From a virus, in IMG/VR virus record IMGVR_UViG_3300028198_000317, positions 1-25,142 of that record: 25,142 nt of DNA; one strand, written 5' to 3'. This document shows positions 2,881 to 19,831 of this stretch, piece after piece. Each line of letters begins with the position of its first letter. The stretch's first letter is position 1. Under the pieces are notes generated by a model. It saw nothing but the letters and a program-made list of their open reading frames with translations. It was not told where the DNA came from and did no database searches. The translations under genes and the position numbers were made by a program.

Positions 2881-3113
2881 TAGTGTACACTTCCTTTGCC
2901 TTTCTCTGCGTGTTTGATCATCTTATCTCGTGATCCCGGTTGCAACACTTCTAATACGTCAAGAAGTTTTTTATAGCCGTCTGTTTTCAACATATCTTTA
3001 TTCACCCTTGGCATTATTACTCTTCCTACAGATCCGTCTTCTTTGATTATCACAGCACAGTCTCCATCGTCAAATTCTAATCGATCAGTTACTTCTAAAT
3101 CTATTTTAGACAA
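2880..3113 (-). CDS. Small hypothetical protein in the replication operon
   Basis: 77 aa, unrecognised. The N-terminal half (about 1-36) looks like beta strands with many acidic residues (DRLEFDDGDCAVIIKEDG), followed by a helical segment (DMLKTDGYKKLLDVLEVL) and a basic tail. There is no catalytic signature. It overlaps the zinc-finger gene upstream by 8 bp, and its TAA shares a base with the ATG of the DnaE-like gene (TAATG), so the three are probably translationally coupled. A role near the replisome is inferred only from context. Confidence 0.65.
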   Translation of the reverse strand: MSKIDLEVTDRLEFDDGDCAVIIKEDGSVGRVIMPRVNKDMLKTDGYKKLLDVLEVLQPGSRDKMIKHAEKGKGSVH

Positions 3114-3789
3114 TCTTGGCCTCTCTTGCTGTGTCCTGAACCAACATGTGATCAGCAGGATAGCTCTTCAACTTGCTCGGCCAGAAACTTGTGTTTATAA
3201 ATCTTTCAATCATTTGTAATTGTTCGTCGTTAAATGATTTTAACATCCTTTTGCCTGCGTTGCAACCTAGCAACAACCAAGGACTTATCTTTCCCTGCTG
3301 TATGTGTTGTACCGCTCTGTTGGTGTTGACAAGTCGGAAGTAGTCTGACCACTGTGCGTTCTGTTCACCCGCCCAGTCCATCATTGTTGTGATGCTTCTC
3401 TGTAGTGCGGCTTCTACTGGTTCCGACTTCAATGCTTCGATAAGATATGTCTCATATAGATCATCTCTCGACCAATGATCCAATTTAATTTTTGATTTCA
3501 AAACGAACTCTATGTATTTGTCTGGATACAATGGATTGATATGCATAATGGATCTACCAAACTTCACGAATGCATTGTAGTATGGACTCTTGACGAAATC
3601 GTCGTATGTCTTTGTTTTAGAGTTGTGCTGGTGTATCTGATAGAATCTTTGGAAAACCATGAACGCATTCACTACCCACTTCTCATCTCTTTGCAGATAT
3701 CTTCTCTTAGGTTCGCACAGGTGTACCTGCAGTGTTCGTTCCTTGGCAAACTCCTTGCCACAATATGTGCATTTATTTGTCGATGCCAT
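3106..3789 (-). CDS. Zinc-finger protein of the replication operon, unknown role
   Basis: 227 aa. Its N-terminus has a C2H2-like finger: Cys7-x2-Cys10, then His23 and Cys25 (CTYCGKEF ... LQVHLC). The rest is mainly helical with many aromatic residues (for example YYNAFVKFG, LDHWSRDDLYETY) and a conserved-looking SPWLLLGC near 169-176. From memory, proteins of this kind are widespread in marine T4-like phages and have no assigned function. The finger suggests nucleic acid or protein binding. It overlaps the gp62-like gene by 17 bp and sits in the same operon as the clamp loader subunit, so it may be a replisome or transcription accessory factor. Confidence 0.68.
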   Translation of the reverse strand: MASTNKCTYCGKEFAKERTLQVHLCEPKRRYLQRDEKWVVNAFMVFQRFYQIHQHNSKTKTYDDFVKSPYYNAFVKFGRSIMHINPLYPDKYIEFVLKSKIKLDHWSRDDLYETYLIEALKSEPVEAALQRSITTMMDWAGEQNAQWSDYFRLVNTNRAVQHIQQGKISPWLLLGCNAGKRMLKSFNDEQLQMIERFINTSFWPSKLKSYPADHMLVQDTAREAKIV

Positions 3790-4225: not shown

Positions 4226-4439
4226 ATCTTAGTGCAAACATTGTGCAATCTTTTGCTGTTGCAAATGTTAATTTTAGTTTCTTGTTCTTGTGTTGTAAAC
4301 CTGAAAATTGGAATTTGTGTTTCTTGATGAAGTCAAAGAAATTATACATCCAATCCTCATCCATCCACACAGCAATTTTGTTACTGGTTATCATTATTGG
4401 TGCGTCGATTGTTATTGATTTTCTACCAGACTGAGCCAT
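4206..4439 (-). CDS. Small basic hypothetical protein (start moved to 4439)
   Basis: 77 aa, unrecognised. The frame is open up to 4502, but the ATG at 4439 is preferred. It begins MAQSGRKSITI, is preceded by an AGGTGG ribosome-binding site about 5 nt upstream, and reduces the overlap with the gene before it from 80 to 17 bp. The protein is basic, with KKHKFQF and HKNKKLKLTF, and looks like an alpha/beta mini-domain (strand, helix with MDEDWMYNFFDF, two strands, helix). Lys-rich strands suggest contact with nucleic acid, but no family is recognised. It lies between a 167-aa unknown and the gp62-like gene. Confidence 0.65.
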   Translation of the reverse strand: MAQSGRKSITIDAPIMITSNKIAVWMDEDWMYNFFDFIKKHKFQFSGLQHKNKKLKLTFATAKDCTMFALRYASRKK

Positions 4440-4926
4440 AGTCCACCTGTTCACACTGTCTCGAGATGTCCTTAACGAAGTAGGCACACATGGGTTTTGC
4501 ACCGTTGTTCAATGGCACAGCCAACATCTGTCCTGATTTGATTTTAGGGAAATACCATTTTACCTCTGTGTAGATATCTACTACATCTATAGGATAGAAA
4601 TCTGGTTTAGGACTAGACAATGGATTAAACGTGAATGCATCAAACCCTCTGTCATTGAGACTTGTAATTGGTAATACATGCATCTCAGATTGTCCTGCTT
4701 CACCTATCAACATCTTCCAGTCAAGCGGCATCTTTATTTTATGAGGTCCTATTTCTAATACTGCCGCTGGAGCATTGAAGCTCTCAAGAAATATTAACGG
4801 TATGTAGAAGAAGTCTGGATTGCTTGGATCGGAGTTATCTAGGACAGCGAATCTAAGATTCTCATCTACCCATTCGGGTATTTTTTCTAACCTATATGTC
4901 CTGTCATCAAGTGTAAGGATTTTCAT
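4423..4926 (-). CDS. Hypothetical protein downstream of uvsW
   Basis: 167 aa, not recognised. The sequence looks globular and beta-rich, with acidic patches, several Trp and Tyr, and many Pro turns (LSSPKPDFYPIDVVDIYTEV near 103-122). There is no membrane segment and no motif for nucleotide binding or metal ligation. Its start overlaps the uvsW stop by 20 bp, so it is expected to be co-expressed with the helicase. It may be an accessory or regulatory protein of replication or recombination, but only position supports that. Confidence 0.65.
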   Translation of the reverse strand: MKILTLDDRTYRLEKIPEWVDENLRFAVLDNSDPSNPDFFYIPLIFLESFNAPAAVLEIGPHKIKMPLDWKMLIGEAGQSEMHVLPITSLNDRGFDAFTFNPLSSPKPDFYPIDVVDIYTEVKWYFPKIKSGQMLAVPLNNGAKPMCAYFVKDISRQCEQVDYGSVW

Positions 4927-6370
4927 AATTTATCTTTTCTATATTATACGGATAATTGGCCTCTTTGTAAAACTTTTTCCTCGCTCCTAAGTGTCTTTTT
5001 GCAAACTTACAAGAACTGGTAATGTCCCAGATCTGTACACTGTCCTTGTCTTCTGCTTTCCTGATCCCACGTCCTATACTCTGTATGACCCTCACGAACG
5101 ACTTGCCTGGCTCTATGAGAACAAGATTAAAAATCCTAGGAATATTAATACCAACAGCGGCCACTCCATATGTGGCGATAATAACTTTATTTGTTGCAGT
5201 AGATATTTCATCATATTGTTCCTTTCTGTCTGTGTTTTTGGTTGCTCCGGACACGAACACTGCGTCATCGATCTGTTCTTCTAAGATCTCACCTGCGGAG
5301 ATCCTATCCACAAGTATTAGTGTGTTACCCGAACTTGATATGTCTTTGATTGTGTTGGCAACCCACTTCATTCTAGTCTTATCTGTGGTTAGCCATTTTA
5401 GTTCTTCTGCATACGTCTTGAACTGAGGATGGTCTTGTGTTTGCAAAACATTCACGTGGCAATTTGCTAAAACACCTTTGTCTTGTAGTTCGCTAGCCTG
5501 TATTCTGTTGGACACATCTCCTATGCTACATTTTAATCCCATGAATTCATAATCTGCTTTTGGCACGGTTCCTGTTAGTCCCCAACGTATACCACAGTGT
5601 GCGAATGGTCCTGTTAATAGTCTTTTCAGTACATCTGCCTTGGCCATGTGCACCTCATCGATTATTACTGTGTTGATTCCTTGTATTGCTTCTAGGAAAT
5701 CAGTTGTATGCTCGTCCTTGCTTTTCTTTTCTAGTACGTTTAGTGACTGCCATGTTGCAATCGTGTTGAACCTACCTAACTCTTTTCTGTCGCCATAGTA
5801 CACACCCACGTCTAAGTTACAAGCAAGAAAGTCCTCTTCTGTCTGTGTGACAAGACTCTTGTTTGGAACAATAGTCAGTGTACGACCGTAAGGTTCAACC
5901 ATTTGGCACAGTGCCGCTGTGATAATTGTCTTACCTGCACCTGTGGCGATCTCCTGTATACTCTGTGGATGTTTTATGAATTTGTTTATTGTCTCTACTT
6001 GATAGTCTCTTAATACTATTGGTTGCCCTGCCGCCGGATGATTCTCCGGCCATTTTATGTGGGATAGATAGTTTTTATCTACTTGTTTAAATTCGAAATT
6101 GTGTTGCTCTCTTTTGTCCTCTACATCTATGTACACTCCTCCCTCATCCAGTATAGGAAGTATTTGGTCAACTAGGTTCAGGTAGGTCGTACCACCCAGA
6201 CCAAAGAAACTGACCTTACCATCCCATCTCCCTAACTTGACTGCTGGTAGATGCCTTGCATATGGTATCTCGTATTTGAATTTGTTAGATAATTTCTTAC
6301 GCCATTCGAGGCTGAGGTTTTCGAACTTCACGTTCACCTCATCTTTTATTACTAGTTTACAACTGCTCAT
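4907..6370 (-). CDS. uvsW: UvsW DNA/RNA helicase (SF2)
   Basis: T4 UvsW is a superfamily 2 helicase that unwinds branched DNA and R-loops. It helps switch from origin- to recombination-dependent replication and rescues stalled forks. The product is 487 aa against about 503 in T4. Visible motifs are Walker A ATGAGKT (142-148), the DEVH box (238-241), TGT of motif III (266-268) and QSIGRGIR of motif VI (430-437), all in the correct order and intact. The first ~100 residues form the small N-terminal substrate-recognition domain (basic, KLVIKDEVNVKFENLS...). It starts one base after the stop of the 452-aa gene and overlaps the next gene by 20 bp, so it is central to the operon. Confidence 0.93.
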   Translation of the reverse strand: MSSCKLVIKDEVNVKFENLSLEWRKKLSNKFKYEIPYARHLPAVKLGRWDGKVSFFGLGGTTYLNLVDQILPILDEGGVYIDVEDKREQHNFEFKQVDKNYLSHIKWPENHPAAGQPIVLRDYQVETINKFIKHPQSIQEIATGAGKTIITAALCQMVEPYGRTLTIVPNKSLVTQTEEDFLACNLDVGVYYGDRKELGRFNTIATWQSLNVLEKKSKDEHTTDFLEAIQGINTVIIDEVHMAKADVLKRLLTGPFAHCGIRWGLTGTVPKADYEFMGLKCSIGDVSNRIQASELQDKGVLANCHVNVLQTQDHPQFKTYAEELKWLTTDKTRMKWVANTIKDISSSGNTLILVDRISAGEILEEQIDDAVFVSGATKNTDRKEQYDEISTATNKVIIATYGVAAVGINIPRIFNLVLIEPGKSFVRVIQSIGRGIRKAEDKDSVQIWDITSSCKFAKRHLGARKKFYKEANYPYNIEKINYENPYT

Positions 6371-6371
6371 A

Positions 6372-7730
6372 TTAAAGTTTTACTATTATGTGATCATGCC
6401 AATCCCAACTACTCGGTTGGTGATCACTATAATACAACTTTTTTGGAAGATTTTCAAGCATTCTTTTTAGATTGTCTGTGCCAGTGGCATAATAACCACC
6501 ACCCAGGGCGACTAATGATGTCTTTGGTTTTACCTTGCTCTTGATTAATGCTCTAGGTATCCTGTTTCTCACGAATATAATTTTCGTTTGTTTATTGATT
6601 AATTTAAACTGTTTACTCATTTGATGTAACTCATACAAGTTTTCAAAGAACTCTTTTGATTTTTGATTATCCAAGAGATATGTTCTTTCGCTGTTAAAAC
6701 GTTCCAGGTCCTTTTTATAGATAGGCTCTTTCACATCAAACCCCCAACTACATTCATTCAATAAGTCAACACCGTGTGCCTTAAATGCGTTCATCCATTC
6801 CCAGAAGTCTTTGACATCATCTTCCATATGTATGTCACCACTTACGGGCATCACTAGAGGAAAGCAATCCAATTCTACCAATCCTTTGACAACTTCATTC
6901 TTGCTGAACCCTTTTGAGTCTATCCATAACTTGTGGTAATTGTTGTGTGCCACTTTGTGACCAATCATGGTCTCTGCTGGGACATCAATGCCTTTGGTTG
7001 ATATATTGAAGTTCTTCAACGAGTCTACTTGTTCCAGTGCTGTTTTATTTTTTAAATTCTCATTCCAATATTCTTGTAGTGATTCAGGGGCATTGTCTAA
7101 CACAACTTCGCCTGCTATCAATCTTGCTGTGGGTTTACGATGTCCTAGCACTTGTTTTTTTATCTCTTCATAATCGTCGAGCAAACTTTCGTCCATAAAC
7201 TTGAAGTCATATCTCACTGCAATCAATGTCAGATAGTAGGCAGTAACATCGCTGTGTTGGAATGTCCATCTCTTTTTCTCACCGTCATACAATGCATACA
7301 TACCAGGCAAGTCACGTTTGTCTTTCATACAACGTATCAGTTGTATTACTTTCTTGTGATATGGGAATCTCATCTCTATCCTGACAATGTTGTCATCGTC
7401 TGTGTACTTCTCTATTACTTTGTCAAAACTTATTACTCTAAATTCATCCTCGTATACTGGATTGTCTAATAATTTTTTGATGTCCATTCCGTGTGCTTGG
7501 AACTTGGTCAGGTATCTTTTCAATATTACAAGTGCCAGTCTGGCCTGTTTCTCTGTCCAAGCATACTGTGATTCTGCCAAAGATCTCACTGTGTCGTAAT
7601 CTTTTGGGTGTGGCTTGATTACGGCTGTATTTCCTATCATTGACGGATTTGCCCAAAAATAATCATTATATGCTAGTATTTTAAGTGCTTCGTTAATTGT
7701 TTTTGGTAAATCTGTGTGCATTTCTGTCAT
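6372..7730 (-). CDS. 452-aa protein, possible HARP-like domain, first gene of operon
   Basis: Unknown function. Residues about 115-160 read IVRIEMRFPYHKKVIQLIR ... KKRWTF, the pattern of the HARP module of SMARCAL1-type annealing helicases: strand, FPY, helix, then a 'W.F' strand. The T4 UvsW N-terminal domain is reported to have a related fold. No Walker A or DEAD box is present, so it cannot be a helicase by itself. The N-terminal 110 residues are helical (LAESQYAWTEKQARLALVIL). The C-terminal part (about 280-452) alternates strands and helices, ending with GGGYYATGTDNLKRML and HDHIIVKL. It lies 1 bp before uvsW, so the two are surely co-expressed. I infer a DNA-binding partner of UvsW; the HARP similarity is tentative. 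Confidence 0.6.
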   Translation of the reverse strand: MTEMHTDLPKTINEALKILAYNDYFWANPSMIGNTAVIKPHPKDYDTVRSLAESQYAWTEKQARLALVILKRYLTKFQAHGMDIKKLLDNPVYEDEFRVISFDKVIEKYTDDDNIVRIEMRFPYHKKVIQLIRCMKDKRDLPGMYALYDGEKKRWTFQHSDVTAYYLTLIAVRYDFKFMDESLLDDYEEIKKQVLGHRKPTARLIAGEVVLDNAPESLQEYWNENLKNKTALEQVDSLKNFNISTKGIDVPAETMIGHKVAHNNYHKLWIDSKGFSKNEVVKGLVELDCFPLVMPVSGDIHMEDDVKDFWEWMNAFKAHGVDLLNECSWGFDVKEPIYKKDLERFNSERTYLLDNQKSKEFFENLYELHQMSKQFKLINKQTKIIFVRNRIPRALIKSKVKPKTSLVALGGGYYATGTDNLKRMLENLPKKLYYSDHQPSSWDWHDHIIVKL

Positions 7731-7752
7731 GGTATTTTAGATAATTATTAAT

Positions 7753-7780
7753 AGTATAACATAATTGGTAAAACTGTCAA
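7753..7780 (-). promoter_or_regulatory. Sigma70-type promoter of the uvsW operon
   Basis: Read on the minus strand, the region has an exact TTGACA -35 (7780-7775), a 16-bp spacer and a TATACT -10 (7758-7753) preceded by TG, i.e. an extended -10. Initiation near 7746 gives a leader of about 15 nt before the ATG at 7730. This is the strongest host-type promoter seen in the window. Its -35 lies just inside the leader of the divergent SprT-like gene. Confidence 0.7.
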
Positions 7781-7782
7781 CC

Positions 7783-8262
7783 ATGAAAAAAACGAAACAT
7801 AAAACGGTAAATGTAAGGAAACAACTCAAAGCCAGGTTGGAAAACACTGCGACTAGGCATAAAAACAAAGTTAGTTTCAGACCCACAGAACAACAAGTCT
7901 ATCATTGGTTTGGTGTAATAAACAGAGGGTTATTCAACAGTAGATTACCAAGAGTTCCAATTTACATTAAAAGGTTACACAAAGATTGGGGCAGATGTGT
8001 GGCCGACTGGGACAACAGAAAATGCAGAAAAGGAACTTTTGATCAAAGAATAATTCCTTACAACAAAACAGAAGTATTTCATTACATCGAAATGCATTGT
8101 AAGTTTCCTACTTGGAAAGATTTTATTGAAACTCTTGCACACGAAATGGTGCATCTTTATCAGATGTCATGGTTAAAAGATCCTTATTCAAATCATAATA
8201 AGAATTTCTTTGCGTGGAAAAACAAGTTTAAACTTGCAGGTTTAGGCTTATCAAGGTGTTAG
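7783..8262 (+). CDS. SprT-like zinc metalloprotease
   Basis: 159 aa. The SprT-like family includes small zincin proteases, and the human member SPRTN cuts DNA-protein crosslinks. The zinc motif HEMVH is at 120-124, set in ETLAHEMVHLYQM, with a likely third ligand His138 (SNHNKNFF). WGRC (69-72) is a typical SprT element. The N-terminus is very basic (KKTKHKTVNVRKQLKAR), which suggests DNA binding. The C-terminal zinc ribbon of bacterial SprT is missing. An in-frame TTG at 7765 adds six residues, but the ATG at 7783 is preferred. It is read toward the glycan island and overlaps its last gene by 12 bp on opposite strands. Substrate unknown: crosslinked proteins on phage DNA or a host protein are both possible. 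Confidence 0.82.
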   Translation: MKKTKHKTVNVRKQLKARLENTATRHKNKVSFRPTEQQVYHWFGVINRGLFNSRLPRVPIYIKRLHKDWGRCVADWDNRKCRKGTFDQRIIPYNKTEVFHYIEMHCKFPTWKDFIETLAHEMVHLYQMSWLKDPYSNHNKNFFAWKNKFKLAGLGLSRC

Positions 8263-8997
8263 AACCTTTTCAAACTCTTTGTAATTAATAACTCGACTGT
8301 TACCTAAGTCAGTGCCTGTTTGGAGATAGTTTAAATAATCTGGAGGATTATCATGTACCACGGTATAGTTCACGTACGGTCTCATCTTCAACATATCTCG
8401 TAAATGTTTTAGCCATCCTTCGAATATCTTATCATCATTTCGTTCTCCATAATTTTCTGTGTCTTGGTATATGTTGTTGAGTTCGCCTTTGCCGTATTCC
8501 CTGAAGTCAAACCCTAGTAGATATATGTTCTTGTGTCCGTGTACCCCCGCTGTCCAAAAAGCGGCGTTACCTGATATCCAGTGTGGGTTGTTGGGTATCA
8601 GGTGTATCATGCCCTTGCTCTGTTTCCTATTGACTTCCAAGGCCGGTCCATAGTGTACGGTCTTCAATCCAACTTCGTCCTCCACCATCTTCATTGACAT
8701 CTTGGTGTCCACCGAAAAAATAAAGTCCGGCATGAAATCTCTGTACAGTGCATTACAACCGTAAGTCTGTCCTGTTGCTTTTAACTTGTTAAGATCAAAT
8801 CCTTTTCGTGATGGCCCGTTGCCTATACAGTACGCATTTCCTCTAGGTACTGCTTTCACTTTGTCTTCGAAGTATCCTGTTTCTTGTGTACGTTTTCCCT
8901 TACGTATTATGGTGTTCAAGATAATAGTTTCACCGGTGTACGGTTCCCACTTAATAGGGTCTATCTCTTTTCTTCTACCTATCTGTATAGTTTTCAT
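8251..8997 (-). CDS. DUF115/MptE-like or sialyltransferase-like protein
   Basis: 248 aa. The N-terminal third has CIGNGPSRKGFDL (57-69) followed by TYGCNALYRDFMPDFIFSVD (78-97). This Rossmann-like signature is shared by DUF115/MptE-like proteins and by CstII/Cst-I-like sialyltransferases in phage and surface-polysaccharide clusters. Such proteins modify or transfer sugars using a nucleotide-activated donor. The mid-section has HLIPNNPHWISGNAAFW and the strand-turn YLLGFDF (about 159-165), with a Gly-Asp-Phe arrangement seen in that fold. It is the last gene of the ten-gene minus-strand run and overlaps the methyltransferase gene by 23 bp. The precise activity cannot be told. A glycan role is inferred from the island. 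Confidence 0.6.
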   Translation of the reverse strand: MKTIQIGRRKEIDPIKWEPYTGETIILNTIIRKGKRTQETGYFEDKVKAVPRGNAYCIGNGPSRKGFDLNKLKATGQTYGCNALYRDFMPDFIFSVDTKMSMKMVEDEVGLKTVHYGPALEVNRKQSKGMIHLIPNNPHWISGNAAFWTAGVHGHKNIYLLGFDFREYGKGELNNIYQDTENYGERNDDKIFEGWLKHLRDMLKMRPYVNYTVVHDNPPDYLNYLQTGTDLGNSRVINYKEFEKVLTP

Positions 8998-9544
8998 ATT
9001 CTAAAATTGATACTCCGTCATTTTGTGATAATAATTTATAATTTTTTTCTTGTAAAAAGCCAAGTAACTTTTTTTGTGAAGGCGATTGTTTGTAATTTTT
9101 GATATTGTAATTATTAGTTTCTCTGCCCACCCCAATAACTATGTCGTTATCATTGTGATCTTTGTGCCTTACATGTAATATATTTGATTTTACTTTTTTG
9201 AGTAGTGTCTCCAATTCCGATCCCCAGAGCTCCCCCATTAGGCATATTACTGCGTGTAAAAAAATAATGTCCACATGGAGATCAGATGGCAAATCATTTA
9301 TACTTTCATATAGATTTGTGTGAGGATTAAATCTTTTACAATCTAATCTGTGTTCCTGATCTGGTTCCACACCGTGTGTGGTTATACAGTTAAACTCCTT
9401 TCTTGCCTTGGCATTGAGAATGCCTTTCCAGATACCAACGTCGAGACATTTTTTATTTTGTAGAATTTCTTTACTCGGTAACCATGTGGTGTTCCAGTGG
9501 CGTTGGCAAGTTTCATAGTGTTTGCGAATCTTCCTTAGGTTCAT
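8975..9544 (-). CDS. SAM-dependent methyltransferase-like (start moved to 9544)
   Basis: 189 aa from the ATG at 9544, which overlaps the previous stop in the classic ATGA form. The longer frame to 9586 would overlap the neighbour by 46 bp and is not needed. CLDVGIWKG (33-41) is the glycine-rich SAM-binding motif I, followed by VEPDQ (motif II acid). The region from 95 to 115 (VDIIFLHAVICLMGE) fits motif IV of class I methyltransferases. The C-terminus is AT-rich and Lys/Asn-rich, unlike its GC-richer neighbours, which hints at later acquisition or loss of constraint. Probably methylates a sugar. The target is unknown, and a degraded, inactive domain cannot be excluded. Confidence 0.55.
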   Translation of the reverse strand: MNLRKIRKHYETCQRHWNTTWLPSKEILQNKKCLDVGIWKGILNAKARKEFNCITTHGVEPDQEHRLDCKRFNPHTNLYESINDLPSDLHVDIIFLHAVICLMGELWGSELETLLKKVKSNILHVRHKDHNDNDIVIGVGRETNNYNIKNYKQSPSQKKLLGFLQEKNYKLLSQNDGVSILEYENYTDR

Positions 9545-10413
9545 TTGATATATTTCTCCTCTAATCTTGCTCGAATCCTGGTCCATGGAAGTCCCTGCTC
9601 TATCTCATCTTCGAACCATTCTGTGTATGCCAGTTTGTTTGCCCATGTCAGCCTGTTGGGCATGGCCGGTGTGTTGATATCTGCCAGTTTGATGTTTCCC
9701 ACATCATGGCACAGGCTCGATTCCGATACGAACACAGGTATGCCCTTCATGACCGCCTCCATGGCAGGATTACTAGAATGGTTTACAACCGCCCACGTCC
9801 TCTCTAGTGTGGCCTTGAAATCTGTGTCGTCGTAGGTCCTATAATCTCTTTTAGGCAATCTCACCTTCACATTTTTAAATTTATTCTCATCAAATGTAAT
9901 CGTGTTACGAGGATGTGGCCTTACTAGTATCGGCCGTGTTGTGTATTTTCGTATTTCCGTTATCTGTTGTTCGATCCATGTAGACATTCTAGGAAGTCCC
10001 TTCCATTGTTCTGATGCATCGTGTTGTCCGCAAATCACTATTAGGTCACCGGTAGGATTCCATGGACGTAATTCATATTTGAACAAAGGCCAACGTTGGT
10101 CGTCAAACGTTTGATTGGCAAAATCTGCGTCTCTGTTTATACCGTTAATGCCTATCTTGAAACTGAGATTTCTACGCAGTCCCCCGACTTCTATAACGAT
10201 TACTGGTTTACCTTGGCTCCTGTATCTTTCCCATATTGATTTGTAACTTTGCATCCTGCCTCGCCACAGCACACTCCAGATCACTGCAACATCGCCGTTG
10301 GTCTCTTTGTTTACATAGACTTCGTCTCCCGAAGTCTGCATAGATTCTATAAATTTCTTAAAGATCGTTTTGCTGTTCTGTGGACCATGCGTGGGCCATG
10401 CTTCTACTTTCAT
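9541..10413 (-). CDS. Capsule-type glycosyltransferase (KpsC/KpsS-like), paralog A
   Basis: 290 aa, with the C-terminal half of the 'capsule polysaccharide biosynthesis' GT-B-like family. ILVRPHPRN (162-170) is followed by TWAVVNHSS (206-214) and AMEAVMKGIPVF (217-228), the hallmark pair in which the conserved RPHP and the small-residue SNPAMEA loop form the donor site. HDVGNIKLADIN and a C-terminal WANKLAYTEWF complete it. The N-terminal half (VAVIWSVLWRGRM) is the acceptor-side Rossmann domain. KpsC/KpsS members transfer Kdo or related sugars. The donor here is unknown. It shares a base with its neighbour (TAATG at 10413), is one of four paralogs in the window, and keeps the RPHP motif. Confidence 0.62.
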   Translation of the reverse strand: MKVEAWPTHGPQNSKTIFKKFIESMQTSGDEVYVNKETNGDVAVIWSVLWRGRMQSYKSIWERYRSQGKPVIVIEVGGLRRNLSFKIGINGINRDADFANQTFDDQRWPLFKYELRPWNPTGDLIVICGQHDASEQWKGLPRMSTWIEQQITEIRKYTTRPILVRPHPRNTITFDENKFKNVKVRLPKRDYRTYDDTDFKATLERTWAVVNHSSNPAMEAVMKGIPVFVSESSLCHDVGNIKLADINTPAMPNRLTWANKLAYTEWFEDEIEQGLPWTRIRARLEEKYIK

Positions 10414-11276
10414 TATATTTTTCTCCAGTAGTCTAGGTCTTTTATGTCTTGGCCGGCCCCTTTGAAGTCTTTCATTTTGCTTTTGCCTTCTGCCTTCCTA
10501 TTGCCTTTGAAATGATCCATGTACAGTCCTAATTCACTGTTTATGAATACGTGGTGTCCTCTAACGCCTTTCCAATAACCTATGTCGTTTACTTTTACGT
10601 TTTTCTCTTTTTGATATTTTTTTGACAAATGCCATAACGTAGAGCAATCTGTCCACTCAATTAATTCAAATATTTTGTCAGACACATACAGGTCTTCCCA
10701 GTCCTTGGTGTAGTTTTGTATTTCAGGATGATTTAGATTGTATCCTACGAATCCACATTCTGGATACTTTCCACCGTCACTTAGGTTTGGATTTTCCCTA
10801 CCCAAGTAAGTTAACATTGAATCACTGGGCAGTAGTCCTTCAAAGAACTCTTTTGGTATTGGCCTAAAGGAATATGTGTCAGCATCCAACCATATTAGGT
10901 AATCATAACCTGCAGAATTTTTTATTGCATGAGTTACACAAAAAACTTTGTTTGCAAATCTCACAGCATTCCAAAGGAAAGATCCTTTAGGTGCCATGGG
11001 TATTGGTCTACGTACACCATTTGGTATTTCGTTTATTTCACCGTTTGCCACAGGATCGTCTTTGTACTTGTTCTTAAATTTTAACAACTCGGGTTGTACA
11101 TTGTGTACGTCTAACCATTCTACTCTAGCATGTTCAAAAATATCTTGTGATTGTGCTTCGTGGTATACAACAATCTGTGTGTCTCCAGGCCAGTGTTGCA
11201 ATACACTATCTACTGCTCTCCTGGCATACTCGTTCCAGGTGCCCGGTTTGTAAGATGTTATAACTTTAATTTTCAT
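10413..11276 (-). CDS. Glycosyltransferase, GT-A type with DAD motif, copy 1
   Basis: 287 aa. The metal-binding DxD motif is DAD at 131-133, set in YDYLIWLDADTYSF, as in nucleotide-sugar-dependent GT-A enzymes (GT8/GT32-like). FLWNAVRFANKVFCV (100-114) and LTYLGREN with GGKYPECGFVGYNL flank it, and a metal-ligand His is likely in the C-terminal YMDHFKGN (about 263). Sugar donor unknown. Copy 2 (15697-16587) is a close paralog: identical in the first 13 codons, very similar from about 100 on, but divergent between 14 and 65. This suggests duplication followed by divergence or recombination in the N-terminal part. It overlaps the capsule-type gene by one base. Confidence 0.75.
   Translation of the reverse strand: MKIKVITSYKPGTWNEYARRAVDSVLQHWPGDTQIVVYHEAQSQDIFEHARVEWLDVHNVQPELLKFKNKYKDDPVANGEINEIPNGVRRPIPMAPKGSFLWNAVRFANKVFCVTHAIKNSAGYDYLIWLDADTYSFRPIPKEFFEGLLPSDSMLTYLGRENPNLSDGGKYPECGFVGYNLNHPEIQNYTKDWEDLYVSDKIFELIEWTDCSTLWHLSKKYQKEKNVKVNDIGYWKGVRGHHVFINSELGLYMDHFKGNRKAEGKSKMKDFKGAGQDIKDLDYWRKI
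10738..10967. repeat. Two conserved DNA blocks shared with GT-A copy 2
   Basis: Two stretches within GT-A copy 1 are identical at the nucleotide level to copy 2. 10935-10967 (33 nt, encoding AVRFANKVFCV) matches 16237-16269. 10738-10760 (23 nt, encoding ECGFVGYN) matches 16040-16062. Such long identity, including synonymous positions, points to recent duplication or conversion. Confidence 0.75.
11239..11276. repeat. 38-bp direct repeat, copy 1 (GT-A start)
   Basis: Thirty-eight bases, encoding the first 12 residues MKIKVITSYKPG plus two bases of the next codon, are identical to 16550-16587, the start of GT-A copy 2. The two are in the same orientation, 5.3 kb apart. They could support homologous recombination that deletes or duplicates the five genes between them. 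Confidence 0.85.
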
Positions 11277-11292
11277 GATATCGATATTTAAT

Positions 11293-12921
11293 CTACGTAG
11301 TCATATTATATTTTTTAATCCAGTCACTTACAATCATTGCTGGTATATTTGCTTTACCGGATTTGTTCCACCAATGTTGTAAAGGCACTGTCCATCCTGT
11401 TTTCATTTTGTTTACGATAACATCTGGCAATAGCCCTTTGTACGCAATCTTAGTCAAAAGTTTTGTGTCTCCTTTATCTTTTCCAATTTTCTCATCACTG
11501 TGAATATTCATGCAATATTGCATAAATGTTTTTGTTGCTAAAGGGAAACGGCCTTCCATACTGTAGGCCATTCCATATTTGTCATTCCTCATTAAAAATT
11601 CTTCAGGAACCTGTGCCACACAATCAAGTGCCATGTATGATCCTATAGGATCACCCGGATTCCACAAATCTTCGGGATAGCATTTAAGTAGTTCGTTACG
11701 TAGGATAGTTTTGTCGTATACTTTTATCGGACGTTTTATTCTGTTGATCCATTTATCTATAATGTCTGCCCAGCAAGTGAATTTTTCTTTTCTAAGTTTC
11801 CAATATTTTGGATACCCGCCCAATACCTCATCTCCCATATCTCCTGCCATTGTTACCACTATACCGTTGTCATGCAACACTTTATTGGTGTAACAATACA
11901 TTGCAAGGCTTGGATTGTACACAGGTTGTTCTATGTAGTATATCGAATCGTTCCAATATTGCTCTACTATTTTAGGAGTAATGGTTACTTCAGTATGATT
12001 AAAATTATTAATGTTTGCCAATACTTTGGCACAATCGGCATCTTCGTTGTGATCGCCGTCCTTTGGATGTATGTAGTTTGGTTCCATTCTATTAGTAAAA
12101 GTATTTGCTTCTCCCAACACATTTCTTAACTCGTATGCCACCAAACTCGAGTCTAGTCCACCACTTAAAAATACACCAATTTTTCTTCTTCCAATACTGG
12201 CCATTTTTATAGATTTTTGTGCTATTGTTTTAAATTCTTCTAGATTAAACTTTTTGTTTGAATTAGGTTTAATGAATACTCTTTTTGTGTTTGTGATTTT
12301 TTTATTTGTAATATCGTAAACAATAGTTTCTCCCGCCAATAACTTTTTAATTCCTGTAAAGAAAGTGTTACGTAACGGATTTATTCCTGTGGTAGTCATG
12401 CAACCTAATGCTAGTTCATCTTGTTTCCTGCTACCAGGCACTTTGTCTAACATTCCTTTTATCTCAGAGCCAAACACCAAACCCTCTTTTATTTCTGCAT
12501 AGTACACAGGTTTCACACCTGCATGGTCTCTGCTTAACGTAAGTGTGTTCTTATCGATTTCGTAGTAAGCAAAACCGTGCATAGAATCTATCTCATCAAT
12601 AAATGACAGTCCAAATTTATCCAACCCCCAAGCAAGTAATTCTGTATCACATCCTGAAGTGTCGGTGAAGTCTTTGTACTTTCCTTTTAATTCGTAATAG
12701 TTAAAGATCTCTCCATTGTATACAAGTTTGTTTCCTTTGGGAGTAGTCCACGGCTGTGTTGCATTATCTGGTTCACCCATTATGCTTAACAAGTTATGAC
12801 CCAACGTTATTTTTTCGTTATGCCAAACACTTGAACCGTCAGGTCCTCGGTGTTTACATATATCTATAAATTCATTTATAAATTTTGGATTGTGTTCGGT
12901 TATACCGTATATACCACACAT
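11293..12921 (-). CDS. asnB: Asparagine synthase (glutamine-hydrolysing), AsnB-type
   Basis: 542 aa, near full length (E. coli AsnB 554). The N-terminal class II glutaminase domain begins MCGIYG with Cys2 as nucleophile and has CKHRGPDG (22-29), YNGEIFNY (68-75) and SGCDTELL (89-96). The C-terminal ATP pyrophosphatase domain has SGGLDSS (253-259) and a KTGWTVPLQHWW end. Its textbook reaction makes asparagine from aspartate, ATP and glutamine. In sugar clusters, AsnB-like proteins also amidate uronic acids or other glycan carboxylates. The ORF overlaps the capsule-type gene (TAATG at 12921) and sits mid-operon, so an amide-bearing glycan is the likely product. AT-rich sections suggest separate acquisition. 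Confidence 0.88.
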   Translation of the reverse strand: MCGIYGITEHNPKFINEFIDICKHRGPDGSSVWHNEKITLGHNLLSIMGEPDNATQPWTTPKGNKLVYNGEIFNYYELKGKYKDFTDTSGCDTELLAWGLDKFGLSFIDEIDSMHGFAYYEIDKNTLTLSRDHAGVKPVYYAEIKEGLVFGSEIKGMLDKVPGSRKQDELALGCMTTTGINPLRNTFFTGIKKLLAGETIVYDITNKKITNTKRVFIKPNSNKKFNLEEFKTIAQKSIKMASIGRRKIGVFLSGGLDSSLVAYELRNVLGEANTFTNRMEPNYIHPKDGDHNEDADCAKVLANINNFNHTEVTITPKIVEQYWNDSIYYIEQPVYNPSLAMYCYTNKVLHDNGIVVTMAGDMGDEVLGGYPKYWKLRKEKFTCWADIIDKWINRIKRPIKVYDKTILRNELLKCYPEDLWNPGDPIGSYMALDCVAQVPEEFLMRNDKYGMAYSMEGRFPLATKTFMQYCMNIHSDEKIGKDKGDTKLLTKIAYKGLLPDVIVNKMKTGWTVPLQHWWNKSGKANIPAMIVSDWIKKYNMTT

Positions 12922-13901
12922 TACATTCCTAACTTTTCTTTGAATCTTTTAAATATTGTGCCGTCTCTAATTTCTTTTTCACTCCACAATTTATAGCCAA
13001 GGTCATTGAGCCATTGCGTCCTATCTGGATATTCTGGTGTTTCTATGTTGTTAAGGTTCTTGTTTGCTACAGGCCAACTCAGTGCAAGATCTGAAGTATT
13101 GAATGTGGGAATTCCACGAACACACGAGTCAACACCGGCAGTAGAATTGTGTGTAACAACAGCATGACAGTTGGCTATTGCTTCTTGGAAATGGAATCTG
13201 TAGTATTTTTTCTCATCACCTTGAAAATATTTTTGACCAATGTGTACTTCTACGTCTTCGGGAAATTCGTTCTTTCGTTCTTCTATGTTGACAACGTGAT
13301 TAGGATGTGGCCTCACAATAAATTTTCTATCTGTTATGGGTCTTAATTTTTCATACACTCCATGGAACCATTCAATGGGATCGAGATCGTTCATGCTCCA
13401 GTTGTCCTTGGGTTGTAGAACAAACATGATAGGATCTTCTTGATCAGATTTCCTCCATGGATCATTTTTAATATTCCACCTGGCCTTCGCGGCCTCCCAT
13501 CTATCAGGAGGACTGTTGTCTGACAAGAAGTCTCCGTTGTTCATGGGTGAAAATAACGAAACCCTCCAATGATGCTTTGGCCCATGCACATTACCAAAAC
13601 TTGAAAGTAATCCACCGTCAAATGTTATTATCTTGATTCCTTTTTTCTTTGCACGTTCCACCAGATCCCGTCTACGTCCTTTGGTGTGATGCTTCTGATT
13701 GCTACCACCATAACCAAACATGCAACCAATTGGGTGTGTGGGTTCCATTTCGTCTTTGGTCCATTCTCCTGTTTTTGTTTCGTTAACCATGATTGGTTCG
13801 TCACCACAGGCTTCTATTCCTTCGGCCATGTATTTTAACAGATCGTAACTTGCTCCTCTACGTCTGTCTTTCACTGTCCTTCTAAATATTTCAACTTTCA
13901 T
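12921..13901 (-). CDS. Capsule-type glycosyltransferase (KpsC/KpsS-like), paralog B
   Basis: 326 aa, the longest of the four capsule-type paralogs. RPHPNH (197-202) and THNSTAGVDSCVRGIPTF (250-267) carry the family signature, preceded by the beta strand CHAVV. The N-terminal Rossmann half has a glycine-rich MFGYGGSNQK (61-70) and a run rich in Arg/Lys, with IITFDGGLLS (91-100) as the second strand-loop. The insert between 100 and 160 explains the extra length over paralog A. It overlaps the next gene by one base and the preceding one by 11 bp. The donor sugar and whether it is a full transferase are unknown. Confidence 0.62.
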   Translation of the reverse strand: MKVEIFRRTVKDRRRGASYDLLKYMAEGIEACGDEPIMVNETKTGEWTKDEMEPTHPIGCMFGYGGSNQKHHTKGRRRDLVERAKKKGIKIITFDGGLLSSFGNVHGPKHHWRVSLFSPMNNGDFLSDNSPPDRWEAAKARWNIKNDPWRKSDQEDPIMFVLQPKDNWSMNDLDPIEWFHGVYEKLRPITDRKFIVRPHPNHVVNIEERKNEFPEDVEVHIGQKYFQGDEKKYYRFHFQEAIANCHAVVTHNSTAGVDSCVRGIPTFNTSDLALSWPVANKNLNNIETPEYPDRTQWLNDLGYKLWSEKEIRDGTIFKRFKEKLGM

Positions 13902-14706
13902 CTAGTATCCTCCAAGCATATCCGTTTCTTAATTCTTCTGCTGTAAATTGACCGTATGCCATTGAATAGTATAAAGGTTCTCGATCAATGTAGCAAGGAT
14001 TTTCTATTTTAGAGAAATCTGTTTCTGATATAGGTGCACACGCATTGTGAGGATCAGTGAAGCACGGAATGCCTCTAGTGGTTGCTTCTAAAGAGATATT
14101 GGAGTTGTACGTCACAACAGCATAAGCGTCATTCCAGTCTATGGGACCACTTGGTTTACTGTCATCTTTACCAGTGACTATCATTCCCCCGTTTGCATCA
14201 TGTCCCATGATAGGGTTGTACCCTTTGTTCTTTACAATGATAGGTCTGTCTGTGTTGTCCTTCAGTGTTGCTAATGTTTTGTCTAGCCAGTCATGTACAC
14301 CAAAAAATTCCTTCATAGCATTGGACGGTGGACACACTATTATGTTCTTTCCGTCCTTCTTCCATGGGTGTATAGGCCATGGGAATGAATTTTTAAAACG
14401 ATCATCTGGCCTGTCCTCTTGCCAGTTCTTCAAATGACTATTCTTTACAACCTTAACATAGTAAGGGTTGTTCCTCGTTTCTCCCCAGTAAGGTCTGTCC
14501 ATGTAGTAGAAATCTATGTTATTTTTCTCTGCCCATTTGTACACGAGATGTGTGCCACGCAGTACACCAAACATCACTGCTTTTGTGCAATCCGTCTTGT
14601 TTATGATTTCAATTGGTGCGAGTTTCTTGGCTCCTGGTAAACCTTGTGCGGCCCAATCAACATATTTTTCTGTGAGTGCCCTATTAGTGGAACTAACGTA
14701 GATCAT
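13891..14706 (-). CDS. Capsule-type transferase relative, paralog C (no RPHP)
   Basis: 271 aa. AYAVVTYNSNISLEATTRG (194-212) matches the C-terminal signature of the capsule-type family, but where A and B have RPHP, C has RPIIVKNKGYN (154-164). Its N-terminal half has YYMDRPYWGETRNNPYYVKV (67-86), closely matching YWFADTPYFGRFDNN in paralog D at 18377, so C and D form a subfamily of their own. The donor site has therefore changed, suggesting a different substrate or an inactive fold. C-terminal AYGQFTAEELRNG is near identical to D (AYQQFTPEEIENG). It overlaps the Gmd gene by 14 bp. Confidence 0.55.
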   Translation of the reverse strand: MIYVSSTNRALTEKYVDWAAQGLPGAKKLAPIEIINKTDCTKAVMFGVLRGTHLVYKWAEKNNIDFYYMDRPYWGETRNNPYYVKVVKNSHLKNWQEDRPDDRFKNSFPWPIHPWKKDGKNIIVCPPSNAMKEFFGVHDWLDKTLATLKDNTDRPIIVKNKGYNPIMGHDANGGMIVTGKDDSKPSGPIDWNDAYAVVTYNSNISLEATTRGIPCFTDPHNACAPISETDFSKIENPCYIDREPLYYSMAYGQFTAEELRNGYAWRILDES

Positions 14707-15676
14707 GGGATAGTCTCTTTATGTCTTCGTTGACCATCAAAGCAACCATGTCTTTGAATTCGGTCTTAGGTTCCCATCCTAATTTTTCTTTTGCTTTGGC
14801 ATATGACCCATGTAGTGCGTGTACTTCTGCCGGACGTTTGAAACGTGGGTCAGACTCAACGTATTGCTCCCAATTATCGATACCAGCAGTTCTAAAAGCA
14901 TGAGTAAGTAATTCTCTAATAGAATGTTGCACTCCTGTGCATATTACGTAATCTCCCGGATCTTGTTGTTGCACCATGGTGTACATGGCTTCAACAAAGT
15001 CGCCAGCAAATCCCCAATCTCTTTTTGCATCTAGGTTTCCCAGTGTAAGTTTTTTTGCAAGTCCTAGTTTAATCTTAGCAACACCGTCTGTGATTTTTCT
15101 TGTGACAAATTCTCTACCCCTAATAGGTGATTCGTGATTGAATAAAATTCCATTTGAAGCATGTATGCTATAACTTTCTCTGAAGTTGACAGTCATCCAG
15201 TAGGCATAAAGTTTTGACACGCCGTATGGAGAACGCGGTTGGAACGGCGTTTGTTCGTTTTGTAAACCGTCAACATTTGAGTTACCGTAGAGTTCACTGG
15301 TACTTGCTTGATAGAATTTTGTAAGTGGATTTTGATTTACTATTGCATTAAGGATGTTCAACACACCCATGGCATTTACTTCCGTTGTCTGTTTGTTGAG
15401 ATCCCAACTGGCTCCCACAAAACTCTGTGCGGCAAGATTGTAAAATTCGTTTGGCCTGATCGTTCTTACCAAGTGGTTCATGTTGGCATCGTCTGTGATG
15501 TCGCCTGTGATCAGTTCCACATCGTTTTGTATTCCAAGATAATCGAGATTTGATAGATTTGGATTGCTGTACCTTTTTACCAAACCATAGACTTTGTAGT
15601 CTTTTTCTAATAGGTGTTTGGCTAGGTAAGGACCATCTTGTCCAGTCATTCCTGTTACAAATGCAATTTTTTTCAT
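14693..15676 (-). CDS. gmd: GDP-mannose 4,6-dehydratase
   Basis: 327 aa. Gmd converts GDP-D-mannose to GDP-4-keto-6-deoxymannose, the branch point to GDP-fucose, GDP-rhamnose, perosamine and colitose. NAD(P)-binding TGMTGQDG is at 8-15. The active site STSELYG (125-131) and YGVSK (151-155) contribute the Ser/Thr-Tyr-Lys set. FNHESPIRG (179-187) and RDWGFAGDFVEAM are specific to Gmd. Length is slightly below the usual 340-370. It is the committed step for the island's 6-deoxy sugar, and the next reductase or epimerase is expected nearby; the epimerase at 19832 is a candidate, though not obviously of the fucose synthase type. Spacing to GT-A copy 2 is 20 bp. Confidence 0.92.
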   Translation of the reverse strand: MKKIAFVTGMTGQDGPYLAKHLLEKDYKVYGLVKRYSNPNLSNLDYLGIQNDVELITGDITDDANMNHLVRTIRPNEFYNLAAQSFVGASWDLNKQTTEVNAMGVLNILNAIVNQNPLTKFYQASTSELYGNSNVDGLQNEQTPFQPRSPYGVSKLYAYWMTVNFRESYSIHASNGILFNHESPIRGREFVTRKITDGVAKIKLGLAKKLTLGNLDAKRDWGFAGDFVEAMYTMVQQQDPGDYVICTGVQHSIRELLTHAFRTAGIDNWEQYVESDPRFKRPAEVHALHGSYAKAKEKLGWEPKTEFKDMVALMVNEDIKRLSHDLR

Positions 15677-15696
15677 TTAATGTAATTATGTCTAAT

Positions 15697-16587
15697 TTAA
15701 CTTGGTGGTACTTTTTTCCAGTAGTCTATGTTTTGTAGGTCAAAGGATGCGTTAGGATTGACACGGAAATCATTTCTAGCAGACGTACCGTGGAGTTTTC
15801 TCTTGCCTTTGAAATGGTCCATGTACATTCCCAATTCACTATTGATAAAAACATGATGACCTTTCACTCCTTTGTGATATCCTATGTCGTTCACTTGTAT
15901 ATTTTTTTCTGCCCTGTACATTTTTGACAAATGCCAAAACACGTACGAATCATGCCATTCGAGAATTTTAAATACATCGCCTGTTGTGTAAAGTCGCTCC
16001 CAGTCGTTTATAAAGTTACGGGTCTCTGGATGCTTTAGGTTGTATCCTACGAATCCACATTCCGGATAAACACCCCCGTCACCTAACGTTGGATTTTCTC
16101 TACCTAGATACGTAAGCATGGTTTCTTCTGGTAATAATTTTGAGAAAAACTCTAATGGCACAGATCTGAAAGTGAAAGTGTCTGCGTCTATCCACAGCAC
16201 ATAATCGTATCCGTCGGAGTTACGCACTGCATTGACTACACAAAAAACTTTGTTTGCAAATCTCACAGCGTCCCAAAGAAAAGAATCTTTATCTTTATCC
16301 AACCCCTGTAAGTTGGGCGACCTTCTTACACCACCTTCGATCTGTTTAATTTTGCCATTTGCGGTTGGGTCGTCTTTGTACTTGTCTTTGAATTTGAATA
16401 GTTCTGTCTCTGCTTGTGTTAGATCAACACACGTTATTCTATCGTCAACGTCCTTTGGTTGTTGTTCTTCACAGTAGAGAAATATATCCACCTCCGGAGG
16501 AAATTGTTCGACCATGGAGTGTATTCCCCGTTTGGCGAACGATCCCCAAGTGCCCGGTTTGTAAGATGTTATAACTTTAATTTTCAT
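15697..16587 (-). CDS. Glycosyltransferase, GT-A type with DAD motif, copy 2
   Basis: 296 aa from the ATG at 16587. An upstream in-frame TTG (16593) adds two residues but overlaps the previous stop, so the ATG is preferred. The DAD motif is at 134-136 (LWIDADTFTF). FLWDAVRFANKVFCV is nearly identical to copy 1, as are LTYLGRENP, YPECGFVGYNL and GHHVFINSELG. The N-terminal 14-65 region differs. An insertion near 93-101 (LQGLDKDK) is present only here. As a paralog, it may use the same donor with another acceptor, so that two enzymes build successive linkages. It starts 2 bp after the GT61 stop. Confidence 0.75.
   Translation of the reverse strand: MKIKVITSYKPGTWGSFAKRGIHSMVEQFPPEVDIFLYCEEQQPKDVDDRITCVDLTQAETELFKFKDKYKDDPTANGKIKQIEGGVRRSPNLQGLDKDKDSFLWDAVRFANKVFCVVNAVRNSDGYDYVLWIDADTFTFRSVPLEFFSKLLPEETMLTYLGRENPTLGDGGVYPECGFVGYNLKHPETRNFINDWERLYTTGDVFKILEWHDSYVFWHLSKMYRAEKNIQVNDIGYHKGVKGHHVFINSELGMYMDHFKGKRKLHGTSARNDFRVNPNASFDLQNIDYWKKVPPS
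16040..16269. repeat. Two conserved DNA blocks shared with GT-A copy 1
   Basis: 16237-16269 (33 nt) and 16040-16062 (23 nt) are identical to blocks in GT-A copy 1 at 10935-10967 and 10738-10760. Both encode conserved protein segments (AVRFANKVFCV, ECGFVGYN), but even synonymous sites are unchanged, so relatively recent exchange is likely. Confidence 0.75.
16550..16587. repeat. 38-bp direct repeat, copy 2 (GT-A start)
   Basis: Identical to 11239-11276 at all 38 positions, covering the start codon and first 12 residues of the second GT-A gene, in the same orientation. Confidence 0.85.
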
Positions 16588-16589
16588 TG

Positions 16590-17672
16590 TCAATCGAGAT
16601 ATTTAAGTAGGTCCGGAACATCGATTTTAAAATTTATTAGATCGCTTAGTCTCTTTATACCTTTGGGTTTTTTGCCACCTTCCAGTTTTATTGGCACTGT
16701 GTTGGCCAAGTATAGTTCGTGTTTTAATCCTAGGTGGTGTGAAAGTATTGGATAGACTTTTTTATGAATCATTTTGGTGTCTTGTATTTCAATTACTTTT
16801 GTTCCTGGTTTACACCAAAGTAGATTGACCAATCCTGCCCCATGGGCCGCGACAATGTGTGTTGCTTCCGCAAATGTTTTCATTTGTTCTCGTATGGTCA
16901 TTGTTTCTAATACAACTGTTTCCCATCCTTTCAGGGCCAGTAACAGTTCATCAGAATTTGTCATTCTTCTTGTTTTTGCTCCCGGACGTAGCACCACAAT
17001 CTTTCGATATGGTTCTTTGACCTCATGTCCGTGCAGACCTTTGAAGTGTCTCAGCCATGGTGCCAGATGAGGAGTAATCACTCCATCCTTTGTATTACTA
17101 GCACTGGGCACTAGTAAATGTTTGAACTGCCATGTTTCATTTTTTGGCATGACCAGTACTTTTATCTCAGGAAACAATTCCTTGATTATTTTCTTAAAAT
17201 ATCTACTCTCGTTTGCCAACACATAGCAGTATTTTGTGAAATCTGTGGACCAGCGTTTCTCTAACAGTCTGAATTTTGATATCACGTCAATCCAAATGTG
17301 CCATGGGTTGTTCACACTTTCCTCATCAATGGGCAACCACACATACATATATTTCTCATGGAAGTGTTGGCTGACGGGTGGCAGATCTGCCTGTACTTCG
17401 TCCCCCCACTCTTTCCAGAGTTTGTGTGTCTTGTCTGGTTTATTCCTACGTTGATCCGTGAGGCCCCAGATATAATTGGTTATCAATTTCTGTTGATAGG
17501 TAACAAGTAATGGGCAAGTATGCACTTTGCAATCATGGAATTCGGCAACAAACGTTGGTAAACTTGTAAAATTTGGATCTATCTCTTTGTGGTAGGGAAC
17601 GGTGTAGTTGTAACTGGTATCAACAGTCTCCCACTTGTCTAAAAAATATTTGATTGAATCTATGTTCTTCAT
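16590..17672 (-). CDS. GT61-family (DUF563) glycosyltransferase
   Basis: 360 aa. Residues 275-296 read AAHGAGLVN followed by LLWCKPGTKVIEI, the signature of DUF563/GT61 enzymes (plant xylan arabinosyl- and xylosyltransferases, animal EOGT, many bacterial polysaccharide enzymes). KIVVLRPGAKTRRMTN (224-239) supplies the conserved Arg near the donor site, and the C-terminal LEG(G)KKPKGIKRL is basic. No membrane segment is seen, so it works in the cytoplasm on a nucleotide-activated sugar. It is the first gene of the ten-gene minus-strand run, with a promoter candidate starting about 16 nt before the ATG. The donor is unknown. Confidence 0.82.
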   Translation of the reverse strand: MKNIDSIKYFLDKWETVDTSYNYTVPYHKEIDPNFTSLPTFVAEFHDCKVHTCPLLVTYQQKLITNYIWGLTDQRRNKPDKTHKLWKEWGDEVQADLPPVSQHFHEKYMYVWLPIDEESVNNPWHIWIDVISKFRLLEKRWSTDFTKYCYVLANESRYFKKIIKELFPEIKVLVMPKNETWQFKHLLVPSASNTKDGVITPHLAPWLRHFKGLHGHEVKEPYRKIVVLRPGAKTRRMTNSDELLLALKGWETVVLETMTIREQMKTFAEATHIVAAHGAGLVNLLWCKPGTKVIEIQDTKMIHKKVYPILSHHLGLKHELYLANTVPIKLEGGKKPKGIKRLSDLINFKIDVPDLLKYLD

Positions 17673-17674
17673 GA

Positions 17675-17703
17675 TTGTATTTTGCCAGTAAGTATACTAT
17701 AAT
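17675..17703 (+). promoter_or_regulatory. Sigma70-like promoter for the plus-strand glycan run
   Basis: TTGTAT (17675-17680), a 17-bp spacer and an exact TATAAT (17698-17703) give a good sigma70 layout. Initiation near 17710 would leave a very short leader to the ATG at 17713, or 15 nt to the alternative ATG at 17725. Confidence 0.55.
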
Positions 17704-17723
17704 TATTGTATTATGTTAACCAA
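17696..17723 (-). promoter_or_regulatory. Divergent sigma70-like promoter for the minus-strand run
   Basis: On the minus strand, TTGGTT (17723-17718), a 16-bp spacer and TATAGT (17701-17696) form a moderate match. Its -10 overlaps the TATAAT of the plus-strand promoter, so the two would compete. The start site near 17689 lies about 16 nt before the ATG at 17672, a leader length similar to that of the uvsW operon promoter. Confidence 0.4.
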
Positions 17724-19189: not shown

Positions 19190-19812
19190 AGATAGAAAAA
19201 GTAAATGACTTTTGGGTGCCATCGAATGATATACACATAGAACAATGGAAGTCAGGAGCACCATTTACACAGAACAAATGCCTCAACAAGTTTATAAAAT
19301 ATTGCGAGTCACAAACTAAAAAAATGAAAACAGTCATTGATGTTGGTGCGTGGTGTGGGACATGGTCAAAAGCCATCGAGCCGTTCGCTAAAAAAGTAAT
19401 TGCTTTTGAGCCTGACAAAACACATTTTGAATGTTTACAACGTAATTGCACTATAAATTGTACACCAAGAATGGAGGCTGTTGGGTCTCAACTACAAGAA
19501 GTATCACTAACTGAAGATGACTTCACACAGGCAAAGCGGGTTGATAAAGAAGGCAATATACGAATGACCACTATTGACAGTATGGAGTTTACAGATGTTG
19601 ATATGATAAAGATTGATGTTGAAGGTTATGAAATGGAAGTGTTAAAAGGTGCAACAAAAACTTTAGAAACTGTAAAATATCTGATGATAGAATTAAACAA
19701 CAACACCAAAAAATATGGCAGTAATAATCTTGAAATTGAAAAATATTTAAAGTCATTAGGCTTTAAGGTATTAATGGATCATTGGCCTGACAAAGTTTTT
19801 TACCGTGCATAA
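19186..19812 (+). CDS. FkbM-family methyltransferase 1 (start moved to 19186)
   Basis: 208 aa. FkbM-family enzymes O-methylate sugars and other hydroxyls using SAM. Motif I is VIDVGAWCGTWS (50-61), the acidic motif II is FEPDKTH (74-80), and the family block IKIDVEGYEMEVLKG is at 141-155, which places the protein in FkbM with confidence. The frame is open back to 19096, but the ATG at 19186 is preferred because it overlaps the previous TGA as ATGA and the extra 30 residues lie in another gene. This protein and the one at 21593 may methylate different positions. Confidence 0.87.
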   Translation: MKIEKVNDFWVPSNDIHIEQWKSGAPFTQNKCLNKFIKYCESQTKKMKTVIDVGAWCGTWSKAIEPFAKKVIAFEPDKTHFECLQRNCTINCTPRMEAVGSQLQEVSLTEDDFTQAKRVDKEGNIRMTTIDSMEFTDVDMIKIDVEGYEMEVLKGATKTLETVKYLMIELNNNTKKYGSNNLEIEKYLKSLGFKVLMDHWPDKVFYRA

Positions 19813-19831
19813 CTTAAATTAAATACTCAAA

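Follow-up and report, generated by a model that had tools for sequence, protein, structure and literature searches.

A HARP-like protein with a putative degenerate helicase lobe, encoded directly upstream of uvsW in uncultivated phages, as a probable partner of the UvsW helicase

The gene considered here lies in a stretch of 25,142 bases (the window) from the uncultivated virus record IMGVR_UViG_3300028198_000317, on the minus strand and directly upstream of uvsW, whose ATG starts 1 bp past its stop codon. The open reading frame (7730..6372) is genuine, and its product, referred to below as the candidate partner, comprises an N-terminal helical region, a HARP-like domain and a likely degenerate RecA-like lobe. 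The features of the locus are as follows.

4907..6370, minus strand: gene of the UvsW helicase with which the candidate partner is paired, motifs intact
6371..6371, minus strand: single base separating the stop of the candidate partner (TAA, 6374-6372) from the uvsW ATG (6370-6368), with an ATGA overlap in relatives
6372..7730, minus strand: candidate UvsW-partner protein with HARP-like domain and putative degenerate RecA-like lobe (452 aa, ATG start)
6426..6968, minus strand: putative degenerate RecA-like (SF2-type) lobe, residues 255-435 (from structure matches, with motifs assigned by eye)
7212..7385, minus strand: HARP-like domain, residues 116-173 (strands 116-121, 146-149 and 154-158; helices 126-137 and 161-173)
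7494..7607, minus strand: N-terminal helical region, residues 42-79 (helices 42-52, 60-72 and 74-79), with T59-x-x-Q62 and Y73 (TEKQARLALVILKRY)
7731..7782, no strand: short divergent intergenic region between the candidate partner gene and a sprT-like gene (plus strand)

The initial annotation had taken the downstream neighbour to be UvsW, which is borne out by PHROG phrog_16 ('DNA helicase', E 2.9e-75), by the Pfam families ResIII and Helicase_C and by intact GAGKT and DEVH motifs; its closest annotated relatives are jumbo phage helicases, some of them UvsW by name. UvsY-like and UvsX-like genes lie at the opposite end of the window. The uvsX-uvsY pair is separated from the candidate partner-uvsW pair by about 15 kb (8251-23909) rich in glycan and surface-sugar genes (asparagine synthase, GDP-mannose dehydratase, glycosyltransferase 61, epimerase and FkbM methyltransferase), while in reference jumbo phages with the same module the distance from uvsX to uvsW is only a few kb. 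Right after uvsW, a 167-aa protein (4423-4926) belongs to a family of unknown function (phrog_11279), and genes of near-equal length follow uvsW in L303 and L315. A few genes downstream of uvsW, a conserved phage protein of 227 aa (3106-3789; phrog_11058) carries a weak N-terminal C2H2-like zinc finger. The 196-aa product of 2290-2880 has a PHROG match annotated as DNA polymerase (E 7e-67) and a very weak Pfam match to the finger domain of bacterial PolIII alpha, and resembles a polymerase fragment retained as its own gene. The 12 bases preceding the ATG of the candidate partner (7731-7742; TCTAAAATACC type) are strongly conserved among homologs using the same ATG, and show no obvious Shine-Dalgarno sequence in the homologs starting there.

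Apart from HARP (PF07443), no Pfam family is found in the candidate partner; the match covers residues 119-161 (E 0.0084, 16.1 bits, for a curated cut-off of 25 bits). When the whole 25-kb record was searched with PF07443 alone, this segment was the single place matched (E 7.9e-5, 17.4 bits). Of 37 close homologs, 35 have the HARP match at the same stretch, as do 6 of 10 divergent homologs, and no family match reaches the cut-off (19.7 bits for the best relative seen). The segment includes IVRIEMRFPYHKKVI (residues 115-129) and a W.F strand (RWTF, 154-157), and across 71 sequences of the marine family F122, P123, Y124, K126, K127 and W155 do not vary and F157 hardly does. The role of chance was assessed by running a profile of the segment, derived from 41 diverse family members, on three true HARPs and on 3000 shuffles of each. 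The mouse SMARCAL1 HARP (4o66) scored 8.9 bits (2/3000 shuffles as good), and the Bacillus phage HARP copies scored 8.5 bits (6/3000) and 15.0 bits (0/3000). In comparisons of profiles, P was 0.0017 and 0.0037 against SMARCAL1 and 0.00026 against the Bacillus phage protein, with agreement of the matched columns. At the level of sequence, the segment thus resembles true HARP domains beyond chance. An AlphaFold2 model of the candidate partner, based on 71 homologs (mean pLDDT 84.6), predicts for residues 116-173 the HARP order beta-alpha-beta-beta-alpha with a pLDDT of about 66-91. The HARP-like module that the initial annotation had placed at residues 115-160 is therefore supported by the predicted order of its elements, by its conservation in homologs, most of which repeat it, by the profile comparisons and by the chance test, in which hardly any shuffle of the SMARCAL1 and Bacillus phage HARPs scored as well as the true sequence.

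Besides this module, the family is marked by its N-terminal region, in which T59 (99%), Q62 (100%) and Y73 (96% of 70 diverse members) make up the motif that is best conserved across the wide family. The remainder of the chain suggests that the candidate partner is more than the HARP adaptor of the initial annotation, with apparently a degenerate RecA-like helicase lobe in the same chain. In the AlphaFold2 model, strands and helices alternate across residues 255-435 (267-271, 277-286, 292-296, 303-318, 359-374, 384-388, 393-398, 404-407, 419-426 and 430-435), with a pLDDT mostly of 85-96 across residues 200-340. Foldseek searches of the PDB return mostly SF1/SF2 helicases as top matches, led by XPB (8ebt/8ebu), Ssl2 (7o4i), Upf1, SNF2/BRM, DDX41, T4 UvsW (1rif) and Chd1; TM-scores are low, and since the best E value is 0.0022 and none falls below 0.001, the fold of the lobe is likely but unproven. 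Viral structure matches include a Bacillus phage HARP protein (E 8e-5) and a phage helicase (E 1.3e-4). By eye, a strand and helix (LWIDSKGFSKNEVV) stand at the motif-I position, where SNF2 enzymes have LADEMGLGKT, and lack GKT, and FPLVMPVSG stands at the motif-Ia position. Helicase ancestry of the lobe is suggested by the structure matches and the motif order, and the strand order reads as one lobe, not two. Neither Pfam nor PHROGs detects a helicase family in the candidate partner, and comparison of the family profile with a UvsW profile was negative. Walker A is absent in 150 of 150 family members (101 close and 49 distant), so that the statement of the initial annotation that the protein has no ATPase holds at the level of motifs.

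The association with uvsW is firmer than could be seen from the window. Every one of the 110 distinct close homologs whose flanks were long enough is encoded immediately before uvsW; the gap is -4 (ATGA overlap, n=23), -1 to +2 (n=86) or +6 bp (n=1), so that stop and start codons often overlap, and this position is kept in the wider family. A sprT-like gene is divergently oriented upstream of the candidate partner in 80 of 80 loci. The candidate partner diverges faster than UvsW (for a given set of distant pairs, about 55% identity versus 80% for UvsW), and gene order is unchanged around a relative of 42% identity on a MAG contig labelled Rickettsiales. The contig of one close homolog is binned with Candidatus Pelagibacter and may simply be a binned phage; a search of 398 genomes from the phylum of a Pelagibacter MAG yielded no HARP proteins, but as the controls were silent as well, this result is uninformative.

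Beyond these close homologs, 80 other uvsW loci were fetched starting from the uvsW of Sinorhizobium phage Phosso, and 72 of them were examined for the upstream gene. A gene of the same family precedes uvsW in 52/72 loci; its products mostly have 340-460 aa, and the gene typically overlaps uvsW by 4-14 bp. The profile of the marine proteins recovers 23 members of this wide family (E 7e-25 to 2e-11), whose members are 13-21% identical to the window protein and have in common the T-x-x-Q region and the HARP-like segment, as well as the lobe in longer members; a short subfamily matches the rest of the family with an E of 3.9e-15. When whole flanks were searched, a member was found in 57 of 86 loci (the 80 and six reference phages). 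No detectable member lies near uvsW in 24/80 Phosso-like loci (some contigs end upstream) or in five of the six reference jumbo phages (Paride, Atu_ph07, GAP32, slurp01 and Vibrio phage 2.275.O), from which it follows that UvsW can work without this protein. A 477-aa gene product encoded near uvsX in phage Paride was set aside by eye as a probable intron-type endonuclease. The family went unmatched in tblastn searches of 50,697 phage records with the window protein and three relatives and in PDB sequence searches with the window protein and two profiles; PHROGs gave no convincing family for the window protein or the wide family, and no paper describing the family was found in the openly accessible literature.

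In two jumbo-phage lineages the parts are encoded separately. The one match of the wide profile in Phosso is gp418 (212 aa, E 3.5e-18), which holds only the N-terminal and HARP part, and its counterpart on contig L315 (181 kb) is likewise HARP-only (E 1.6e-15). In both, this gene is followed by that of a 500-520-aa protein and then by uvsW. By eye, Phosso gp419 (500 aa) and its L315 counterpart (509 aa) show an SF2 motif order with a broken motif I devoid of GKT (ILCSKPERGRE, then LLIMAQPKFYAQW, ISSYGGL and STIVEELDHA). The proteins of 500-509 aa encoded directly upstream of uvsW at L315:2329-3855 and L081:4378-5880 are 22% identical to each other and have neither a Pfam match nor a convincing PHROG match. 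Aligned with an SNF2 helicase, the split dead-helicase protein has its motifs in register, with a P of only 0.063, and direct sequence comparison of this protein with the window lobe was not significant. These gene layouts place HARP module, apparent dead helicase and UvsW in two genes in the relatives of the window and in three in the split phages, and the separate occurrence of HARP and apparent dead helicase in the latter is an independent hint that the window lobe is helicase-derived.

Several known systems provide points of comparison. T4 UvsW has one N-terminal HARP domain and SMARCAL1 has two, as stated in PMC4666394 with reference to Mason et al. 2014; for SMARCAL1, the title of Ghosal et al. 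2011 has annealing-helicase activity dictated by the HARP domain, and UvsW too can anneal strands (Nelson and Benkovic 2007; both as cited in PMC3409536). The N-terminus of the window UvsW is not recognisable as HARP by sequence (115/3000 shuffles as good). The work of Mason and colleagues is also said to have found that HARP can substitute for the UvsW domain in fork regression. With SMARCAL1 the candidate partner shares the HARP-like sequence and element order, but the similarity is weak and below the cut-off, and it has one HARP instead of two and no active SNF2 motor in the chain. A small conserved gene adjoining uvsW is also known from T4: UvsW.1, a trihelical protein of 76 aa encoded beside the 3′ end of uvsW (PMC1524935, PMC7824862), is described by Iyer et al. 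(PMC7824862), who do not mention HARP, as a potential DNA-binding partner of UvsW and as occurring only in jumbo subgroup 2.2. The candidate partner, in contrast, is encoded upstream of uvsW, has about 450 aa, is alpha/beta with HARP and lobe and lacks the features by which UvsW.1 is defined; its family may take the place of UvsW.1 outside jumbo subgroup 2.2. In archaeal XPB-Bax1, the accessory protein, once bound, can open or close an XPB-type SF2 motor and stimulate or slow it, one Bax1 lowering and another raising XPB ATPase (PMC7293015). Bax1 is thus a case of such a motor being regulated by a bound accessory protein; it is a nuclease, whereas the candidate partner shows no nuclease and is proposed to carry a dead RecA-like lobe. 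A phage HARP protein without a motor is found in Bacillus phage vB_BcoS-136, where gp5 (L401:1986-2723, annotated as HepA-related protein) has two HARP copies, one of them above the Pfam cut-off. This is the protein whose structure matches the candidate partner, but no lobe is seen in it and no uvsW lies within the 5-kb stretch around gp5. It is encoded a few genes from a SprT-like gene, and the window gene likewise neighbours one. Finally, RecC of RecBCD and AddB of AddAB are catalytically dead helicase-fold subunits paired with an active motor, as proposed here for the pair with UvsW; they belong to nuclease complexes of another superfamily, and the likeness is one of function.

Taken together, the candidate partner is probably a dedicated partner of UvsW, combining a HARP-like domain with an ATPase-dead lobe, and the pair would act as a two-chain helicase for annealing and fork reversal. 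Its HARP-like domain would bind fork or junction DNA, and the dead RecA-like lobe would be a structural or regulatory element, probably a surface docking on UvsW. UvsW would give the motor together with the HARP at its own N-terminus. As T4 UvsW already has such a domain, the candidate partner most likely supplies a second HARP, not a missing one, and the two proteins together would have the content of SMARCAL1 (two HARPs, one motor). Heterodimer formation, fork DNA binding and the stimulation or targeting of UvsW are inferred from these features. A bolder reading, which we offer tentatively as quite possible rather than probable, is that UvsW (motor and one HARP) and a pseudo-helicase with the second HARP form an obligate two-chain split annealing helicase, the first of its kind, common among large uncultivated phages and, in jumbo phages, rearranged through fission or fusion of genes.

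Other explanations have to be weighed against a UvsW partner. The protein could be a HARP-type protein that binds specific DNA structures or anneals strands, working in the same recombination pathway as UvsW but never binding it, with gene coupling just matching the amounts of both. Motor-free HARP proteins are indeed known in phages, as seen with the two-copy gp5 that comes without a helicase, and phage replication modules often have tightly coupled genes. A lobe retained beside HARP without catalytic motifs nevertheless suggests a protein-binding role, and a position that is stable down to 13-21% identity, with the dead helicase of split genomes likewise beside uvsW, makes this separate action unlikely, though it deserves serious consideration.

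Less probable still is a negative regulator, the dead lobe docking on UvsW and keeping the motor inactive or timing the onset of fork reversal. Translational coupling and a dead-lobe partner would suit a regulatory subunit, with a precedent in the Bax1 that lowers XPB ATPase (PMC7293015), but the conserved DNA-recognition domain indicates targeting over plain inhibition. Finally, the likeness to HARP could be superficial, reflecting some other beta-alpha-beta-beta-alpha domain, for instance homing-endonuclease-like, in a protein of other function. Its supports are the Pfam HARP scores below the cut-off and the matches to LAGLIDADG endonucleases (E 0.05-1) given by a first, poor model (pLDDT 57, 37 closely related homologs), which were dropped. 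With the deeper alignment, however, helicases replace endonucleases as top matches, three independent HARP sequences match the same segment and the gene adjoins uvsW in every one of the 110 loci, so that this explanation appears the most improbable of those considered.

UvsW is the textbook phage helicase for fork reversal and branch migration, and it is usually studied as one chain. Should many phages regularly pair it with a HARP-bearing dead helicase, fork recognition and motor would become separable and testable piecewise, the two-HARP design of human SMARCAL1 would have a two-chain counterpart in viruses, and numerous unnamed genes adjacent to uvsW would acquire a testable function. The overlap with uvsW also provides a simple annotation anchor for a fast-changing family that is missed by Pfam, PHROGs and BLAST. 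In many uncultivated phages, the annealing-helicase job that SMARCAL1 performs as one protein may thus be split over two phage proteins.
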